A DNA stretch of 23,353 nucleotides from a virus: the IMG/VR virus record IMGVR_UViG_3300050015_000176, positions 1-23,353 of that record. The stretch is one strand, 5' to 3'. Shown here one piece after another: positions 6,302 through 22,681 of the stretch (the first letter of the stretch is position 1; every line of letters starts with the position of its first letter). Below the pieces are notes generated by a model. That model searched no databases, was not told the DNA's origin, and worked only from the letters and a program-made list of their open reading frames with translations. The translations under genes and the position numbers were made by a program.

Positions 6302-7357
6302 TTAGAAACCAAGTCTCGCTTCGTCGAACACGCTCGGCTTCTTCTTTTCCTTGGCCAAGGCGAGTAGAGCGCCTTTCAACGCATAGAGATCTCCTTCATT
6401 CCACTGCTCCAACCCTTCGATGGAGGCAGTAGCAGAAATAATTTTTTGTGCCTCTGCCAGGACATTGGCTTCAGACAGCCCTGATTTCTCGACCAAGGCA
6501 TAGACGCCCTGTAAGGCCGCTGCTATAGCCTCTTTGGTTGAAGGAGTCTCCATTAGGCCGGGAGGGGCTTGAGTTGCATTCAGGTTATTCGCTGTCTCCT
6601 TCTCGAACTCATCCTCAGCCTTCGCCGTCTCCGAAGTGGAGTTAATTTGAATTTCTCGTTTCAGCGCCCAGAGGATCATCGTCTTCATGTGTTCTTCTGA
6701 CAGCCCAGAGAGAGTCAAGTCTGTCGCTCCCTGGGACGCCGCCAGTTCTGCCGCTTTCGCCCGGCCCTCCTCCGGGGGAATGTTTGCCCGGCGAGTAATT
6801 GAAGTCAATTCTGCCAAGGATTTTTTCCATTCTACAGAATGCCAACTCCTCGCCTTTTGTTTCAGTGCATCACGCAGATTGGTTGCAGTTTTCTGTGTTG
6901 GAGTAGGAGAGTCGGGAGGTTGATCTGCGTATCTTCCGTCCTCAAAATTTCCTAAGTAAATTTCCGCTCCGACACCAAGCATTTTCATTGCCGCGCCAAG
7001 CGCGTCTGTCGTGGCCATCTTGTAGGCTTCGTCGTTGCAATGCAGCCCTGAGCTTTCTTTTTCGATCAGGAAGGATCCGCCATTGCCGGGGATCGCCTCA
7101 GACCATTCGTCACCTATTTTAACGAACACTTTTACATTGACGAATGCAAAGACGTTGCCAGCGTCTCCCTGTTCCGTCCATTGCCGATCCACGATAAACT
7201 TCCAGCCGACACCGCAGAGGCCGAATTGCTCTGTCATCATTCTGTAGCGCCACTGAGGGTTTATATCGGTCTTTCCTACTAACCTTCCACCTCGTATGGT
7301 CTTTAATACCTCTTTCGGGGGGCGGGAACAATTATCCCATACTTCAGTGTTGTTCAT
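6302..7357 (-). CDS. Rad52/Sak-like single-strand annealing protein
   Basis: A 351-residue protein. The N-terminal 145 residues match the Rad52-type annealing fold: PPKEVLKTIRGGRLVGKTDI, then WRYRMMTEQFGLCGVGWKF, a beta-rich segment, and AYKMATTDALGAAMKMLGVG near residue 125. Such proteins anneal complementary single strands produced by an exonuclease. The C-terminal half is Ala/Glu-rich and helical and probably mediates oligomer or SSB contacts. It lies downstream of the YqaJ exonuclease and an SbcC-like ATPase, the standard context for a phage recombinase. The ATG follows GGAGGAGG at 4 bases, and the upstream stop ends just two bases before it. Confidence 0.75.
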   Translation of the reverse strand: MNNTEVWDNCSRPPKEVLKTIRGGRLVGKTDINPQWRYRMMTEQFGLCGVGWKFIVDRQWTEQGDAGNVFAFVNVKVFVKIGDEWSEAIPGNGGSFLIEKESSGLHCNDEAYKMATTDALGAAMKMLGVGAEIYLGNFEDGRYADQPPDSPTPTQKTATNLRDALKQKARSWHSVEWKKSLAELTSITRRANIPPEEGRAKAAELAASQGATDLTLSGLSEEHMKTMILWALKREIQINSTSETAKAEDEFEKETANNLNATQAPPGLMETPSTKEAIAAALQGVYALVEKSGLSEANVLAEAQKIISATASIEGLEQWNEGDLYALKGALLALAKEKKKPSVFDEARLGF

Positions 7358-10470: not shown

Positions 10471-10629
10471 TTATTTCGCCCTCCAGTTTGCCAGCCGAAG
10501 TTCGATTCCTTCCCTGATCAGTTCAGTCACACAGCTTTTTCCTTGCGCCGACGCTCGCTTTAATGCGTTTAAATGCTTCTTCGTTAGCCATAGTTGGAAC
10601 CTTTTTGCGTAGTATTTAGGCATTGCCAT
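10471..10629 (-). CDS. 52-residue ribbon-helix-helix DNA-binding protein
   Basis: ATG at 10629 (second Met at 10623) opens 52 codons ending at TAA 10471-10473. The sequence KRFQLWLTKKHLNALKRASA, then a short turn and VTELIREGIELRLANW, fits the ribbon-helix-helix pattern: a short beta strand (RFQLWL) followed by two helices. AGGAG lies 10 bases upstream, and the start overlaps the end of the LPD29 gene by 14 bases. Its stop lies about 25 bases upstream of the XRE promoter. Likely a small regulator; its target is unknown. Confidence 0.65.
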   Translation of the reverse strand: MAMPKYYAKRFQLWLTKKHLNALKRASAQGKSCVTELIREGIELRLANWRAK

Positions 10630-11482
10630 AGTTACTTATCTCCTTTCCTGCGATCTCTGCCGAAGTCTGTCGCGCTGCCCGATAGATCGTTTGTGACTGA
10701 TCTTGAGTTAGTCCCAGGATCTCCCCATAGGATCCGATGTTTTCCTCCTCCAGCTCGAAGCCCATTTCAGACGCAACCCTTTTTACCAGATCCCAGCTTG
10801 TATACCGGGATCTGGTAACATACTTTGCTCCGCCGAACACTTCCGTCCAGGCTGCACCGGAATAAGAATAAAGGTCGTCACAAGGATTGAAACTCCCCTC
10901 CTGATATTTTCCAATTTTTTTTGAAACCTGCTCCTCCGTGGGGCCATCTGTCCAGGAAACCCGGATTGCATTCCCTCCCGAAAAGCTCTCTGATTTTACT
11001 GAAAACTTCACGCCAGGGAAAGAAAGGGCTAATTCTTTTTTGATGTTCCCGGCCCCGACAGTACGTCCCTTGTAGCTCCCTGCCGGGAGAACCTCAAGGA
11101 AAGGAAACCGGGAAGGAAGAGAGGTAATTTCGGCGGCTTTCTCCTCCGCCATGCGGGCTTTTCCCTCCACCTCTGACTTTTGATGGGCTCCCGCCGCCGC
11201 CACCGTCGCTGCGATCTCCTCCGGTGTCGCGATCTCCCCTGGATAGATCCCCCAACCCAACCCACGGAGGATGCACTCCGGCAGGTGTCTGGTTATATGG
11301 GTATTGAAGGCTATGTCATATTCAGCCTCGCCTCCCATGGAACACACTCCCCCGGCTAGGTGCCGGACAGATCCGGGATTCTCTCGCCCGTGTACCGCGA
11401 TCACAATCCCGAAGTCGCGCCAGGAAACCCGCTGTCCGATGATGATCTCGCCTTGATATTGATCTCCTCTGATTCGTTCCAT
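10616..11482 (-). CDS. LPD29-domain protein of unknown function
   Basis: A 288-residue protein. The central part (about 145-230), KKELALSFPGVKFSVKSESF through IRVSWTDGPTEEQV and FNPCDDLYSY, matches the LPD29 domain (large polyvalent protein associated domain 29), found in phage and plasmid proteins. The N-terminal 80 residues begin MERIRGDQYQGEIIIGQRVSW and are beta-rich; about 86-120 is Ala/Glu-rich and helical. I choose ATG 11482 because AAAGGAGGAG precedes it; the 41-residue extension to 11605 lacks one and overlaps the clamp gene. Such domains may act in conflict with the host, but the activity is not known. Confidence 0.75.
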   Translation of the reverse strand: MERIRGDQYQGEIIIGQRVSWRDFGIVIAVHGRENPGSVRHLAGGVCSMGGEAEYDIAFNTHITRHLPECILRGLGWGIYPGEIATPEEIAATVAAAGAHQKSEVEGKARMAEEKAAEITSLPSRFPFLEVLPAGSYKGRTVGAGNIKKELALSFPGVKFSVKSESFSGGNAIRVSWTDGPTEEQVSKKIGKYQEGSFNPCDDLYSYSGAAWTEVFGGAKYVTRSRYTSWDLVKRVASEMGFELEEENIGSYGEILGLTQDQSQTIYRAARQTSAEIAGKEISNYGNA

Positions 11483-11495
11483 TTTTGCTCCTCCT

Positions 11496-12263
11496 TTATT
11501 TTCTTTCAGCAGCGACGGGCATAATAAGCTGAAGAAGATCCCCTTCTTCCGGGTTTTCTCCAATAATCTCCCCGAAGTTTGGGAAACACGTGCTGGGCCC
11601 CGCATCCATAAAAGAATACTCCGCGCCGGAAGCGCAGAAGAAGGTTATATAATTCCCATCTCCGGTGACAGAGAATCCAGTTATAGGATCCTTAACCTTA
11701 ACCAACTTTTGCGCGAAGATGCCTGAGATACGAAAAGAAACTTCTGGAGTCAAAGTATCCTCCCGCGTCAGAACAGATAGCCGCCTCCCGTCTGTTGCCG
11801 AAAGAGTCAGCACGTGATTAACGATTCTGAATTGAATCTTCCGAAGTGCCGGTGAATTCTCATTCTTTTCTTTGAAATAGGACACAATCCGAGAGAAGGC
11901 AGAAAGAAGATCCTTTGTGGACAGGATCTCTGTCCCCTTGGAAGGGAAAAACGGGAAGTCTAAGGGATCGAACGACTCCAGCCGAAGTCGGGAATCCGCC
12001 AGGCAGGCAAAAACGTCGTCGCTTCCCTCCTCCCGCTCGAAATAAACCTCGCCCTTTGACGTGCCCAGGAACGCGATCAACGGCTTCGGTAAGACCACGA
12101 AAGGGAAAGGAACAGGACAGGGGATAACTGCATACTCTTTAAGGTTCATCGTTGTTCTGGCCGTCTCCCCGTCGAAATAGACTGCCGAAAGGATCGGTAG
12201 GGGAGAAACCTCGATAAACCTTCCCGCCTGCTGTAATACCTTCTTTAGTTCTGGTGCTTGCAT
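11496..12263 (-). CDS. DnaN-like sliding clamp lacking the third domain
   Basis: A 255-residue protein resembling the DNA polymerase III beta clamp, which encircles DNA and holds polymerase. Clamp landmarks are PLPILSAVYFDG (21-32), DPLDFPFFPS (99-108, compare the family's 'FP-LP'), SATDGRRLSVL (155-165, compare ATDGHRLA) and CFPNFGEIIG (226-235, compare the FPDYRRVLP linker after domain 2). In E. coli DnaN that linker leads to domain 3; here the protein ends within 20 residues. It would therefore be a two-domain clamp of PCNA-like size. ATG 12263 has AAAGGAAG; the 46-residue extension to 12401 has no support. A regulator of the host clamp is an alternative role. Confidence 0.7.
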   Translation of the reverse strand: MQAPELKKVLQQAGRFIEVSPLPILSAVYFDGETARTTMNLKEYAVIPCPVPFPFVVLPKPLIAFLGTSKGEVYFEREEGSDDVFACLADSRLRLESFDPLDFPFFPSKGTEILSTKDLLSAFSRIVSYFKEKNENSPALRKIQFRIVNHVLTLSATDGRRLSVLTREDTLTPEVSFRISGIFAQKLVKVKDPITGFSVTGDGNYITFFCASGAEYSFMDAGPSTCFPNFGEIIGENPEEGDLLQLIMPVAAERK

Positions 12264-12282
12264 GTTCACACTTCCTTTATTT

Positions 12283-12384: not shown

Positions 12385-12465
12385 TTACATATCGTATACA
12401 TGTAGGGCGATAGCCACAGCTAGCAGGATGCCGACTGTCCACCAGGTAAACGGCGTCATAAACAT
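12385..12465 (-). CDS. 26-residue single-span membrane peptide
   Basis: ATG at 12465 follows AAAAGGAGGTGTAAC, one of the best ribosome sites in the window. The 26 codons (starting MFMTPFTWWTVGILLAVAIA) are almost wholly hydrophobic and would span the membrane once, ending HVYDM. The strong site and clear hydrophobic design make this likely to be a real micro-protein. Function unknown; it is the third small membrane protein in the leftward arm. Confidence 0.6.
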   Translation of the reverse strand: MFMTPFTWWTVGILLAVAIALHVYDM

Positions 12466-16941: not shown

Positions 16942-17614
16942 GCTCGCTAATTTTTCTTCAGAAGAACTTCGCCAGCAATGCTCAGAGTTGTCTCTTATGC
17001 GTATAAGTTCGGAGGAGATCGCCAGAAGAATAAATCTTCCTCGCGCCAAAATCGCTGAGTATGTAAGCATTATTAGAAACGAAGAAGCATTCAAGAAAGA
17101 GAGAGGGCTTGACTCTAAAAACAAGGACTATATCATGCAGGAAGTTGAAAGATCAGAGCTTCGAGAGAAGTTGCTTTGGAAGACACTTCCTCCAGACATT
17201 TTAGACGAAAGCATTCAGCCTCATCCAGCAATAGCGAATACTCTATCACACATAAGGGAGGAGTCCACTTTCCGAAGGAATCTTCTCATAGAATTTGACT
17301 TATTGCAACAACAAAAGATTGGAGCAGAATTGCAATCATGGGAAACATCCTTCATGGAATTTCTAAAAATACCAAAATTAGAGGCCAATAATGCCGACAT
17401 TGAACGAGTTCTATCAGGCTCTACGGGAGAATCGTCTGAGGTATATGGAGAAGTATCTCTGGATCAACACGAAGGAACAGGGGATCATCCAGTTCCATCC
17501 GAACCCATGCCAGATATTGCTGGATGGAATAATTCAGAGACAGATCCAAGAGAAGAAGCCGATCCGCCTGATAATCCTGAAGGCCAGGAGAGTTGGGATA
17601 AGTACCTTCCTTGA
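16931..17614 (+). CDS. Probable terminase small subunit
   Basis: A 227-residue protein directly before the large terminase. The N-terminal part has a helix-turn-helix-like segment (MRISSEEIARRINLPRAKIA, about 23-42), as in small terminases that recognise the packaging site. The middle is helical and charged. The last 74 codons (17391-17614) overlap the large terminase in another frame and encode an acidic, Pro/Gly/Ser-rich tail. The overlap cannot be removed by choosing a later terminase start, since its Walker A codons lie inside it. The assignment rests on position and the HTH; no specific family was recognised. Confidence 0.6.
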   Translation: MDDKLANFSSEELRQQCSELSLMRISSEEIARRINLPRAKIAEYVSIIRNEEAFKKERGLDSKNKDYIMQEVERSELREKLLWKTLPPDILDESIQPHPAIANTLSHIREESTFRRNLLIEFDLLQQQKIGAELQSWETSFMEFLKIPKLEANNADIERVLSGSTGESSEVYGEVSLDQHEGTGDHPVPSEPMPDIAGWNNSETDPREEADPPDNPEGQESWDKYLP

Positions 17615-19916
17615 AGGCGATATTTTCCATTATACGACACTAAATCCTGGAGTTCAATCTTATATTGCAGCAGCAGACAGCGAACAGGCTAAATCTCTGT
17701 TCGATATGTCTAAATTATTCTACGAACAGCTTTCTCCAGAAGTAAAACCCATGCGCCGGTACTGTAACGAGAAGGCTCTTTTTTTTGAGAACCCGAAGGA
17801 AAAGCAAAGGGCCGAGAATCCAGGACTTAGATCTGGAATCAAAATAGGAACGGCTGGTAAAATCGAAGTCGCTAGAGGACAGCTAATCCATCGCCTACAT
17901 TGCTGTCTTCATCCTGATACGCTGATAGACGTAGAAATAAATGGAAATCGAACATATGTTCGCATAAAAGATATGTCTCCAGGGTATACTGTGTTCACGT
18001 TTGAGGGGAAGAAAGTAGAAGTAAAAGGAATCTCAAAAATAGGGATCCGAGAAATTAAAGAGAAAATGATCTGCATAAGAACCGTAACGAAAAATTTATA
18101 CGTTACATCTAACCACAAAGTATTTACTCAAAGAGGGTGGGTAGAGGCCGGGAAACTAAAATCCGGGAAAGATTATCTTGTTGGAAACATGAGAGAGTTT
18201 ATTGATTTTGACAAAATAAAGAGTGAGCCAAACGGATCAGAGGCTATTGCGATAACCATACAGAACCTACAACTCAGCGACAGAGAAGCGCGATTTACTG
18301 TTTTTAAAAAGAATAAAAAATTTATGGGGATATTATTGGATCTTCTTTCTAAGTACAATTTTGACGTTGACGAAAATTCAGATTCTACGTCCCTTATAGT
18401 TCACTCTGAAGACAGTAGCTTTATAAAGCTGCTTAAAGAATACTACAACGATTTTGCAATGCTTAAAGAGAGATCTCTCTCGTTGTCTGAGGCGGAAGAA
18501 GTTCTGTCTTATTTATGCTCTGCCGATGTTCATGAAAGAGAATCGGGAAAGATTAAGAGAATCACCAAAGAAAGATATGCCCATTTTAGGGACTTGATCA
18601 GAGAGAAGATTCCCAATAACAGGCAAAACAACAGATCAAGTCCTGGAATAAATAGTTTAGAAAGGAAATTTTGTGCCGAAAAATATTCCTTCTCACAAGT
18701 AATATCGGTGAAAGAAGAGCCATATCGGGGATTCGTGTATGATTTAATTCTCGATGACAAATCACATTGTTTCCAAACAAGTGAGGGAATAGTGCACAAC
18801 TCAGAACTCTCCGACTGGAGAGGTGGATCCCTGACGCTGGATGCAATTCTTCACTGCGTCCCAGATTTGCCAAACACGGCAGTATATTTCGAGTCAACTG
18901 CCAAAGGGATAGGGAATATGTTCCATGACGAATGGCAACGTGCAATTTTAAAGGATTCTGATTTTGTTCCTATTTTCTTCCCGTTCTTTATTGATCCAGA
19001 CAACAAGATAAAATGCGGAAAGGGCATGATCGAAGAGATAAAGGATACATTGGATGACGAAGAAAAAGAATTGATAATGAGATTTAATCTTGGGTGGGAT
19101 CAGTTGGCGTGGAGAAGGAATAATATTAAAAATAAATGCCACGGTGATATTGATATTTTCCACCAGGAGAATCCTAGCACTCACAGAGAGGCATTTGTAA
19201 CAACTACCTTCAATGTATTCAAGGCAGAAGTTATACGTTCCTGTTTTGCCGTGAAAGAACCAATATTTTACGGGCACTTGATTGAAGAAGACGGTTGTGT
19301 TACACTGAGAGAGGGAGGGCATAAAAGCCCTGTAAGAGTATGGAAATTCCCAGAGAAGGGACACACATACGTTGTCGGTGCAGATCCTACCGTTGGGATA
19401 GATCCCAAGACTGGAGATCCGGCAGCAATGCAAGTGCTGGACATAAAGACACTTGAACAAGTAGCGGAATATGAGCAAGTCGTAGATGCAGACGTATTTG
19501 AGAATGAAATGATTCGGTTAGGTTTTTTCTACAATGCTGCCTTGGTAAATTTAGAACTAAGCGGTCCAGGGTGGGGGATCATAAGATCGTTCAAGGATAG
19601 ATACCCAAATATTGTTTATTGGCCGTATTTAGACGATCCAAAAAAGAGGAACACGGGACACCTTGGATGGGAAACCACCTGCAAAACGAAGGAAGTCATG
19701 CGGAAAGAAACCATAGAACACATGCGTTCCGGGGCACTTACTTTAAGATCAAATTGGCTATTGCATGAGTGCGATACTTACTGCTATAATGAATACATGC
19801 ACCCAGAGGCAAAAGGAGACGCACACGACGATCTGGTGCTTGCCTTGGAACTGGCTGTCGTTGCTTTAAATAATGTCTCGGCGTGTGCCCCAATAGTTGA
19901 AGGGCCAATTCATTAA
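17391..19916 (+). CDS. terL: Terminase large subunit, interrupted by an intein
   Basis: An 841-residue precursor; removal of a 299-residue intein leaves 542, a normal large-terminase length. ATPase part: Walker A-like KARRVGIST (64-72) and Walker B restored by splicing as IHRLHC-SELSDW, with Glu472 the likely catalytic residue; motif III-like YFESTAKG (499-506). Nuclease part: VVGADPT (Asp665), NLELSG (Glu722) and HDDLV (Asp813, Asp814) form the RNase H-like acidic set. The enzyme cuts concatemers and pumps DNA into the prohead. ATG 17391 has GAGG six bases upstream. Without splicing the ATPase should be broken, so packaging depends on it. Confidence 0.95.
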   Translation: MPTLNEFYQALRENRLRYMEKYLWINTKEQGIIQFHPNPCQILLDGIIQRQIQEKKPIRLIILKARRVGISTFLEGDIFHYTTLNPGVQSYIAAADSEQAKSLFDMSKLFYEQLSPEVKPMRRYCNEKALFFENPKEKQRAENPGLRSGIKIGTAGKIEVARGQLIHRLHCCLHPDTLIDVEINGNRTYVRIKDMSPGYTVFTFEGKKVEVKGISKIGIREIKEKMICIRTVTKNLYVTSNHKVFTQRGWVEAGKLKSGKDYLVGNMREFIDFDKIKSEPNGSEAIAITIQNLQLSDREARFTVFKKNKKFMGILLDLLSKYNFDVDENSDSTSLIVHSEDSSFIKLLKEYYNDFAMLKERSLSLSEAEEVLSYLCSADVHERESGKIKRITKERYAHFRDLIREKIPNNRQNNRSSPGINSLERKFCAEKYSFSQVISVKEEPYRGFVYDLILDDKSHCFQTSEGIVHNSELSDWRGGSLTLDAILHCVPDLPNTAVYFESTAKGIGNMFHDEWQRAILKDSDFVPIFFPFFIDPDNKIKCGKGMIEEIKDTLDDEEKELIMRFNLGWDQLAWRRNNIKNKCHGDIDIFHQENPSTHREAFVTTTFNVFKAEVIRSCFAVKEPIFYGHLIEEDGCVTLREGGHKSPVRVWKFPEKGHTYVVGADPTVGIDPKTGDPAAMQVLDIKTLEQVAEYEQVVDADVFENEMIRLGFFYNAALVNLELSGPGWGIIRSFKDRYPNIVYWPYLDDPKKRNTGHLGWETTCKTKEVMRKETIEHMRSGALTLRSNWLLHECDTYCYNEYMHPEAKGDAHDDLVLALELAVVALNNVSACAPIVEGPIH
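17904..18800 (+). other. Intein in the Walker B motif of the large terminase
   Basis: Residues 172-470 of the precursor (299 aa). Block A is CLHPDTLID starting at Cys172; block B is VTSNHKVFT with the usual Thr and His (239, 242); block F/G is VYDLILDDKSHCF followed by GIVHN with His469-Asn470, and Ser471 is the +1 residue. The flanking C-S-E-L sequence is a standard terminase Walker B. About 190 residues between blocks B and F exceed a mini-intein. EEVLSYLCSADVHERESGKI could be a worn LAGLIDADG remnant, but no intact endonuclease motif is visible. Confidence 0.93.
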
Positions 19917-21013: not shown

Positions 21014-22681
21014 ATGGCCGAGATAGTTGACAAATGGGGATATATTTCGGTTGTTACTGAAGAATTAGCCGCAGTCCTCGTCTTGCAAGGGTGGAAGTAT
21101 AAGCGCAAAGGACCGGAATCAGTAAAAAATATTTGCTTCCGCCTTAATAAAAAGATCAAGGCTCCCAAAATAAAGGAGAAACAGAAAGAGCCAGAGGGAA
21201 TAACTTTCCATTCATTTGATCATATCTTGGTCATTCGTTCCATAAATGGCCTTGGGGATGTCCTAATGTTGACTCCTACATTGAGGGAGATGAAAAAAAA
21301 TTTCCCTCAATGTAGGATAACAGTAGCCACACAGCATAGATACGCCCCCATATTTGAGAACAATCCAGACGTGGAATGGATATCCTCAGATATTCCCATA
21401 GAGAAAATAGATAGCGACGGGAGATGTATTTATAACCGAGAAGTCAACTTGAATCATTATGTCGAAAACAGGGAATGTCAAGAAATCACGAATAATGGAG
21501 TATCAAAAATAAACAGGATTGATTTAACGGCGGAGGCATTTGGAATTACTCTTTCAGATCATTCATTAGTATACCAAGTTACTGAGGAAGAAAAGGAGTG
21601 GGCCCTAAAGAAGCTCAAATCCTTGAAGATAAAAAAGAATCAGAAAATTGCTGGAGTTCAAATAAAGTCCGTTTCCCCCGTAAGAACTTACTCTAAAATC
21701 AAAGAAGTGTGCCAGTTTCTCGCGGAGAAAGGAATCGCGATCCTATTATTCAACGAAGACAAGAACATAGGATGGACTGGAAAAAATATTCATAATTTCT
21801 GTGGAATTTCTTTGCGCCAAGTAGGATCATTGATAGATCAGACTCATCTTGTAATTGGGCCTGATTCTGGGCTGATCCATTTTGCCTCTGCTCTTAAAAA
21901 GCCCACAATTGGATTCTTTAATGAAGTTGATCCAGACTTGAGAATCAGATACTACAAGGACGCCTTTGCGTTCTTTCCAAGAGAATCATGCCATAAAATG
22001 CCATGTGGATTTGGATTGGGATGCAAGAAGGAGTGTTTTGATTCTATTATGCCTCAAATGGTTGTGGACAAAGCAATGGAGATGCTCATGGTAGGCAATA
22101 GAGATCAATCTCTCGTGAGCGAAGACAGACATAGAAGGCTTGAGAAAGTCGCCAGCAAAATCATTTCCTATAAGTTAAAGGGAAGCATTGCAGAGGTTGG
22201 AGTCTATAAGGGCGGAACGGCTCTAACACTTGCGAAGGTGTTTAGTAAAACAAAAAAGAAGCTATATCTTTTTGACACTTTCGAGGGCATACCTTATGCG
22301 GATTCAGAGGTAGACGTTCATAAGCAAGGAGACTATGGCGACGTTTCCTTTAAAAGCATTGAAGATATGTTTTCTGGATACAATAACGAGATCAGGAAAG
22401 GCATTTTCCCTGCTACGGCCAAAGGTCTTGAGAAAAAGAAATTCTGCTTCGTCCATATTGACACTGACGTATATCAATCAGTAAAGGACTGCATTGAGTT
22501 CTTTTATCCTCGTGTCGTGGATGGTGGATACTTGATCTTCGACGATTGGGAATGGAAGTATTGCCCAGGTGTTAAAAAAGGGGTAGAAGAATTTCTTATT
22601 GGCAAGATTGAGAAGCCAAGTTTTTTTAATATGCAGTGTGTTATTCAGAAGGGCAGAGAAGTCGCGGAGATACCGGAATGA
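21014..22681 (+). CDS. Fusion of a GT9 glycosyltransferase and a TylF-type O-methyltransferase
   Basis: A 555-residue two-enzyme protein. Residues about 70-360 resemble glycosyltransferase family 9 (heptosyltransferase type): ILVIRSINGLGDVLMLTPTL (71-90) and the nucleotide-sugar site IGPDSGLIHFASAL (281-294), followed by a Cys cluster (326, 331, 337, 341). Residues about 375-550 match the macrocin-O-methyltransferase (TylF/MycF) family: EVGVYKGGTA (394-403, SAM site), LFDTFEG (419-425), HIDTDVYQS (481-489) and FDDWEW (509-514). The N-terminal 60 residues are unrelated. It probably adds and methylates a sugar on a glycan. GGAAGGA precedes the ATG. The next gene overlaps as ATGA. Confidence 0.85.
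   Translation: MAEIVDKWGYISVVTEELAAVLVLQGWKYKRKGPESVKNICFRLNKKIKAPKIKEKQKEPEGITFHSFDHILVIRSINGLGDVLMLTPTLREMKKNFPQCRITVATQHRYAPIFENNPDVEWISSDIPIEKIDSDGRCIYNREVNLNHYVENRECQEITNNGVSKINRIDLTAEAFGITLSDHSLVYQVTEEEKEWALKKLKSLKIKKNQKIAGVQIKSVSPVRTYSKIKEVCQFLAEKGIAILLFNEDKNIGWTGKNIHNFCGISLRQVGSLIDQTHLVIGPDSGLIHFASALKKPTIGFFNEVDPDLRIRYYKDAFAFFPRESCHKMPCGFGLGCKKECFDSIMPQMVVDKAMEMLMVGNRDQSLVSEDRHRRLEKVASKIISYKLKGSIAEVGVYKGGTALTLAKVFSKTKKKLYLFDTFEGIPYADSEVDVHKQGDYGDVSFKSIEDMFSGYNNEIRKGIFPATAKGLEKKKFCFVHIDTDVYQSVKDCIEFFYPRVVDGGYLIFDDWEWKYCPGVKKGVEEFLIGKIEKPSFFNMQCVIQKGREVAEIPE

Follow-up and report, generated by a model that had tools for sequence, protein, structure and literature searches.

Introduction

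Sliding clamps, which keep DNA polymerases on DNA, are almost always rings of six domains, built from two three-domain subunits in bacteria and from three two-domain subunits in eukaryotes, archaea and phage T4. In the solved clamp structures, such as those of E. coli beta and PCNA, each interface is bridged by strand pairing, in which the last strand of one domain lies along the D strand of the domain before it. A two-domain form of the bacterial clamp has been described in E. coli, namely beta*, a shortened DnaN product that has been reported to consist of domains 2 and 3, to be made from the full dnaN gene and to trimerize.

Reduced clamps are also common in phages. Mini-clamps of 170–258 aa, which comprise domain 2 and part of domain 3 without domain 1, are carried by Dhillonvirus and by Vibrio, Acinetobacter, Pseudomonas and Burkholderia phages (L204:2453-2965, L205:2534-3049, L206:2444-3022, L208:1962-2738 and L209:1980-2558). 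Several of them end in a recognizable motif (MPMRL in EP23p08, 170 aa; QPMRL in NVP1237A_49, 192 aa; MPLR in the Acinetobacter 4316 protein, 192 aa), and in USP18_56 (258 aa) the equivalent VIMPLR is internal. When compared with the Pfam model DNA_pol3_beta_2, the mini-clamps give E-values from 7e-4 to 6e-7, with one above the cut-off. They are annotated either as the beta subunit of DNA polymerase III or, via PHROG 3007, as RusA-like Holliday junction resolvases; the latter label is likely a misannotation.

Here we describe a clamp protein, P0001, encoded in a partial viral contig of 23,353 nucleotides (IMG/VR record IMGVR_UViG_3300050015_000176; hereinafter, the window). With DnaN, including its phage versions (PHROG 947), P0001 shares homologous domains 1 and 2, the ATDGxRL and FP motifs and the C-terminal MP strand, but the body of domain 3 is missing, and the protein is 255 aa long compared with 345–421 aa in 33 viral clamps. 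Like PCNA and T4 gp45, which are two-domain and trimeric, P0001 has two domains per subunit and a similar length, whereas its best sequence and structure matches are to DnaN, with PCNA- and gp45-like proteins reaching only about E=1e-6. Like beta*, it is a two-domain DnaN derivative, but with domains 1 and 2 in place of domains 2 and 3. With the mini-clamps (PHROG 3007; Dhillonvirus EP23, Vibrio NVP, Acinetobacter 4316, Pseudomonas USP_18) it shares the motif region of domain 2 and, in most cases, the MP-type strand at the end of domain 3. However, the mini-clamps begin at domain 2 and keep some of domain 3, whereas P0001 keeps domain 1 and drops all of domain 3 except the last strand; P0001 has no match to PHROG 3007. 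The combination of the first two domains with the last strand of the third is a new clamp variant.

The clamp gene and its protein

The initial annotation had placed a clamp gene at 11496-12263. These coordinates stand, with the addition that the gene lies on the minus strand: the ATG is at 12263, 255 open codons follow, and the stop codon ends at 11496. The features of the locus are the following:

12273..12277, minus strand, ribosome-binding motif AAGGA, 9 nt before the clamp ATG (from the sequence)
11496..12263, minus strand, coding sequence of the two-domain DnaN-like clamp P0001, 255 aa (PHROG 947, E=4e-11, and our own HMM)
11937..12263, minus strand, domain 1, approximately residues 1-109 (alignments and secondary structure of the models)
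11556..11936, minus strand, domain 2, approximately residues 110-236, complete, with both beta-alpha-beta-beta-beta halves (alignments and models)
11778..11798, minus strand, ATDGRRL motif, residues 156-162, equivalent to T172-L177 of the E. coli clamp and part of the client-peptide pocket (residues from PMC11139829)
11514..11537, minus strand, last strand of domain 3, LLQLIMPV, residues 243-250 (HMM and matrix; residues 243-247 predicted as a strand in both models)
10616..11482, minus strand, LPD30 + LPD29 gene, next in the operon, with AGGAGG directly after the clamp stop

The frame is open upstream to position 12401, and a start farther upstream that would hide a longer N-terminus was considered and rejected, given that the good ribosome-binding site suits the ATG at 12263; an alternative GTG start, located two codons farther upstream, would leave a spacing of just 3 nt to this site. 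Relative to the usual MKFTV strand, the protein begins about 4 residues late, such that the first beta strand of domain 1 is nearly absent. Because the clamp stop is followed directly by AGGAGG and, after only 13 bases, by the ATG of the LPD gene, the two genes are probably co-translated. LPD30 and LPD29, which here form a stand-alone gene, are otherwise known as domains of large polyvalent proteins. In Aphanizomenon phage CL131, genes for an LPD29 protein, a MoxR ATPase, a VWA-domain-like protein and a clamp follow one another in a row, and in Geobacillus virus E3 no clamp is found near the LPD gene; a clamp–LPD link based on these two cases is too weak to use.

The assignment of P0001 to the clamps comes from profile comparisons. 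PHROG 947 ('DNA polymerase processivity factor') matches residues 5-208 with E=4e-11 over profile positions 11-223 of 368, a span that corresponds to domains 1 and 2. Our own clamp HMM, built from the 33 non-redundant viral three-domain clamps (345–421 aa), gives 37.8 bits on residues 2-175 and, farther along in the same order, also aligns residues 239-252 with model positions 352-365 of 367. With the curated clamp models, P0001 stays under the cut-off in every case, including NCBIfam dnaN (TIGR00663; E=7e-4, 18.6 bits against a cut-off of 137.65) and Pfam DNA_pol3_beta_2 (PF02767; E=0.097, 13.4 against 27 bits), and its overall identity to clamps is about 20%. P0001 is a distant relative of the clamps, and its homology to domains 1 and 2 of DnaN is real though remote; the landmarks of these two domains recognized in the initial annotation are borne out by both profiles and by the predicted fold. 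No defense-system assignment was obtained for P0001.

Genome context and host

A sibling contig (IMGVR_UViG_3300050014_000309), which is identical to the window over the 10,958 bases compared and continues beyond it, holds the only other copy of P0001. Since the two contigs may derive from one sample or from related ones, the sibling constitutes weak independent confirmation. Encoded around the clamp on the same strand are a RecE/YqaJ nuclease, an SbcC-like ATPase, a Rad52-like annealing protein, a DnaD-like initiator, DnaB helicase, SSB and a RuvC-like resolvase, whereas the terminase and, in the sibling contig, the portal and major head proteins are encoded on the opposite strand. The candidate single-strand annealing gene (6302-7357, minus strand), beside the RecE and SbcC-like genes, shows a weak match to Rad52_Rad22 (E=0.013). 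The large terminase subunit (17391-19916, plus strand) is interrupted in frame by an intein (residues 187-470; Pfam Intein_splicing, E=4e-9), and between the terminase and portal genes lies a gene in which a family 9 glycosyltransferase is fused to a TylF-like O-methyltransferase (21014-22681, plus strand).

No polymerase, primase or clamp loader was recognized in the window or in the sibling contig, both of which are partial, and the virus therefore probably uses host enzymes, although the remainder of the genome may encode a polymerase or loader. The nearest relatives of the RecE protein are found in Bacillota, which suggests that the host probably belongs to this phylum.

Only the last strand of domain 3 remains

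An HMM of the domain 3 body (the region of E. coli residues 250-352) scores 3.5 bits in P0001 as opposed to 44–127 bits in real clamps, and nothing above 5.3 bits was found with it in any frame of the window or the sibling contig. This absence from all frames excludes a frameshift or split gene as the source of the short protein; moreover, the tail is in frame, about 10 residues past domain 2, and the LPD gene follows immediately. Scored with an 8-column matrix made from the C-terminal strands of clamps, LLQLIMPV obtains 15.9 bits, which is reached by none of 20000 shuffles and by a single one of 414 non-clamp ORFs, itself the clamp remnant of Lactobacillus phage LfeInf, with the next best ORF at 4.2 bits. 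These counts rule out a chance likeness. The tail is a true last-strand motif of domain 3, as had been suspected from the similarity of LIMPVAAERK to the last strand of DnaN, and M248-P249 of P0001 align with E. coli M362-P363. In ordinary clamps this strand takes part in gripping partner proteins.

The protein had also been described as ending at the linker between domains 2 and 3. The body of domain 3 is indeed absent, but a simple stop is not what is found: about 105 residues of domain 3 are missing before the kept last strand, and this retention points to an internal deletion of about 105 residues instead of a plain stop in the linker. Taken together, the alignments and models indicate that P0001 is a true clamp derived from DnaN, which has two domains and retains the last strand of the third.

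Searches for the same architecture

Among viral contigs, searches with a single protein and with three alignment queries returned three-domain clamps or else contig-end fragments. The viral relatives obtained from P0001-led alignments are three-domain proteins of about 360–402 aa, and all relatives at approximately 20–30% identity with readable ends have three domains as well. No relative was detected by tblastn in annotated phages and plasmids, and the same architecture was not found in genome contigs with P0001 as the query. In 399 Bacillota genomes this query gave 15 matches, in open frames of 366–401 aa, and in 200 Bacillota genomes searched with a profile of domains 1 and 2 the open frames were at least 367 aa among the matches listed. 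Furthermore, no clamp genes are present near related RecE genes in 80 Bacillota loci.

Two candidate two-domain precedents were rejected. The Paracoccus phage clamps match by BLAST in domains 1 and 2 only, yet are full-length proteins, and the 251 aa protein of Pseudomonas phage Quinobequin-P09, a viral structural match, is a frame-broken copy of the three-domain clamp of phage NP1. The break in the Quinobequin-P09 gene (L211:6912-7769) is located in domain 3 and is either a sequencing error or real.

An internal deletion of about 105 residues, in an architecture without a relative in the collections searched, could be the mark of a clamp gene that suffered a recent deletion and is now decaying as a non-functional remnant, and reduced phage clamps of remnant-like appearance exist (LfeInf, 166 aa; Quinobequin_43, 251 aa, frame broken relative to NP1). 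We consider such decay improbable for P0001, which has 255 open codons behind a good ribosome-binding site, sits in a tight operon with the LPD gene, and has intact motif residues in domain 1, domain 2 and the tail. Moreover, its divergence of about 80% from known clamps implies long evolution, and its AlphaFold2 models fold with reasonable confidence.

Predicted fold and the possibility of a ring

AlphaFold2 was run with 27 clamp sequences (mean pLDDT 76, pTM 0.69) and a second time with every homolog cut before domain 3, so that the alignment could not guide the tail (mean pLDDT 75, pTM 0.66). Both models have a two-domain clamp fold, with TM-scores to E. coli DnaN of 0.69–0.73. In Foldseek searches E. 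coli DnaN was the top match of the first model (E=9e-13, TM 0.69 by query length) and again of the second; the DnaN matches have E-values of about 1e-12 to 1e-13, and those to PCNA and gp45-like entries are far weaker. The monomer prediction that the initial annotation had proposed as a check thus yields two clamp domains with the tail as a strand in 2/2 models, and neither a third domain nor a non-clamp fold emerged in the sequence and model tests. Residues 243-247 are a strand in both models, including the one made without tail homologs; the assignment was made with DSSP, which requires hydrogen bonding within the chain. Confidence in the tail is low, with pLDDT of about 66 falling to 48 in one model and 55 falling to 41 in the other.

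Given how last strands pair in known clamps, the retained strand is expected on strand 161-168 of domain 2, next to ATDGRRL, and we infer that this edge strand is its partner. If the tail caps the edge of domain 2 in this manner, domain 1 of a neighboring protomer cannot use that edge, which argues against an ordinary PCNA-like trimer.

In such a trimer, which the initial annotation had offered alongside a decoy or regulator of the host clamp, three head-to-tail copies of domains 1 and 2 would form a six-domain ring that acts as a processivity factor. The two domains per subunit suit this arrangement, for which beta* would offer a precedent, as does the retention of domain 1, in contrast to the mini-clamps. 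Moreover, the helices predicted to line the channel have a net charge of +8, compared with -14 for the rest of the protein and +5 for the same helices in E. coli, other clamps likewise being less basic than P0001; these helices argue that contact with DNA would be kept, which would support a ring. In a variant of this arrangement, the C-terminal strand would supply the nearly missing first strand of domain 1 in the next protomer. The late start of domain 1, by about 4 residues, is compatible with this, and the strand after domain 2 follows the FP motif by 15–20 residues, close to the spacing of the first domain 3 strand in E. coli (13–18), so that the spacing fits; the motif, however, does not, being that of a last strand and not of a first. 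The ring would also have to be loaded by the host clamp loader, as neither contig encodes a recognizable polymerase or loader. We regard a trimeric ring as somewhat unlikely, albeit as the most serious of the alternatives.

The client pocket and the preferred reading

The pocket that receives clamp-binding motifs in E. coli is made up of subsite I (R152, L155, T172, G174, H175, R176, L177, P242, R246, V247, V360 and M362) and subsite II (H175, N320, Y323, V344, M362, P363, M364 and R365) (PMC11139829). Seven of the 12 subsite I residues are identical in P0001 (L155, T172, G174, R176, L177, P242 and M362), two are conservatively changed (V247I and V360L), and other residues stand in place of R152, H175 and R246. 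Most of subsite II has been lost, with N320, Y323 and V344 gone and the changes M364V and R365A.

The reading that we prefer, with a probability of roughly 0.4, is that P0001 is a capped clamp mimic that forms no ring and acts on the clients of the host clamp. Under this proposal, the body of domain 3 would have been lost internally from a three-domain viral clamp, leaving the first two domains and the last strand of the third. The kept strand would fold back on the free edge of domain 2, as in a full clamp, and rebuild much of subsite I, the hydrophobic half of the pocket that receives the binding motifs of polymerases and clamp loaders. The outcome would be an open-ended, presumably monomeric mimic that closes no normal ring by itself. 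Made as an early product beside the recombination and replication genes, it could bind host proteins with clamp-binding motifs, such as the delta subunit of the loader and the polymerases, and thereby bias the replisome towards the phage.

The conservation of 7/12 subsite I residues in a protein only about 20% identical to clamps favors this reading, as does the repeated retention by phages of domain 2 and the end of domain 3 in otherwise reduced clamps; that the mini-clamps share the domain 2 motif region and, for the most part, the MP strand favors a docking-site function. In addition, a monomeric variant of the E. coli clamp has an approximately 50-fold higher affinity for the loader subunit delta than the dimer (PMC11139829). 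The homology in domains 1 and 2, the colinear C-terminal match, the score of the tail motif, the missing domain 3 body, the tail strand in both models and the lack of a recognized polymerase or loader gene likewise speak for it. Counted against the capped mimic are the loss of most of subsite II and the replacement of R152, H175 and R246, the charge of +8 on the DNA-facing helices, which is unexpected for a protein that merely titrates clients, and the low pLDDT of the tail in a protein known from two partial contigs with identical copies.

The retention of domain 1, although the pocket lies on domain 2, might alternatively reflect a dominant-negative role, in which domain 1 of P0001 would pair with domain 3 of the host DnaN and, as P0001 has no domain 3 of its own, yield an arc unable to close. 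The outer strand of domain 1, SRLRLESF, is present, in agreement with such pairing. However, most of the domain 1 residues that form the subunit interface in E. coli differ in P0001 (R96D, R103D, K74P and F106L, the last at a position that is aromatic in 33/35 other clamps), as expected if the usual partner, domain 3, no longer exists. We find this the least probable of the readings and favor the capped mimic, followed by the trimeric ring and then the decaying remnant.

Implications

It seems to us slightly better than an even bet that P0001, as a DnaN-derived clamp with domain 3 reduced to its last strand, represents either the first bacterial-type trimer of two-domain subunits or a self-capped mimic that titrates or redirects the clients of the host clamp. 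If it forms a ring, P0001 would be an intermediate between rings of two three-domain subunits and rings of three two-domain subunits, and would help to show how one becomes the other. If it is a mimic, it would be a phage tool that has the docking site of a clamp but no ring. The protein also draws attention to a broader group of phage mini-clamps in which the docking region is preserved and which are often misnamed as RusA-like resolvases.
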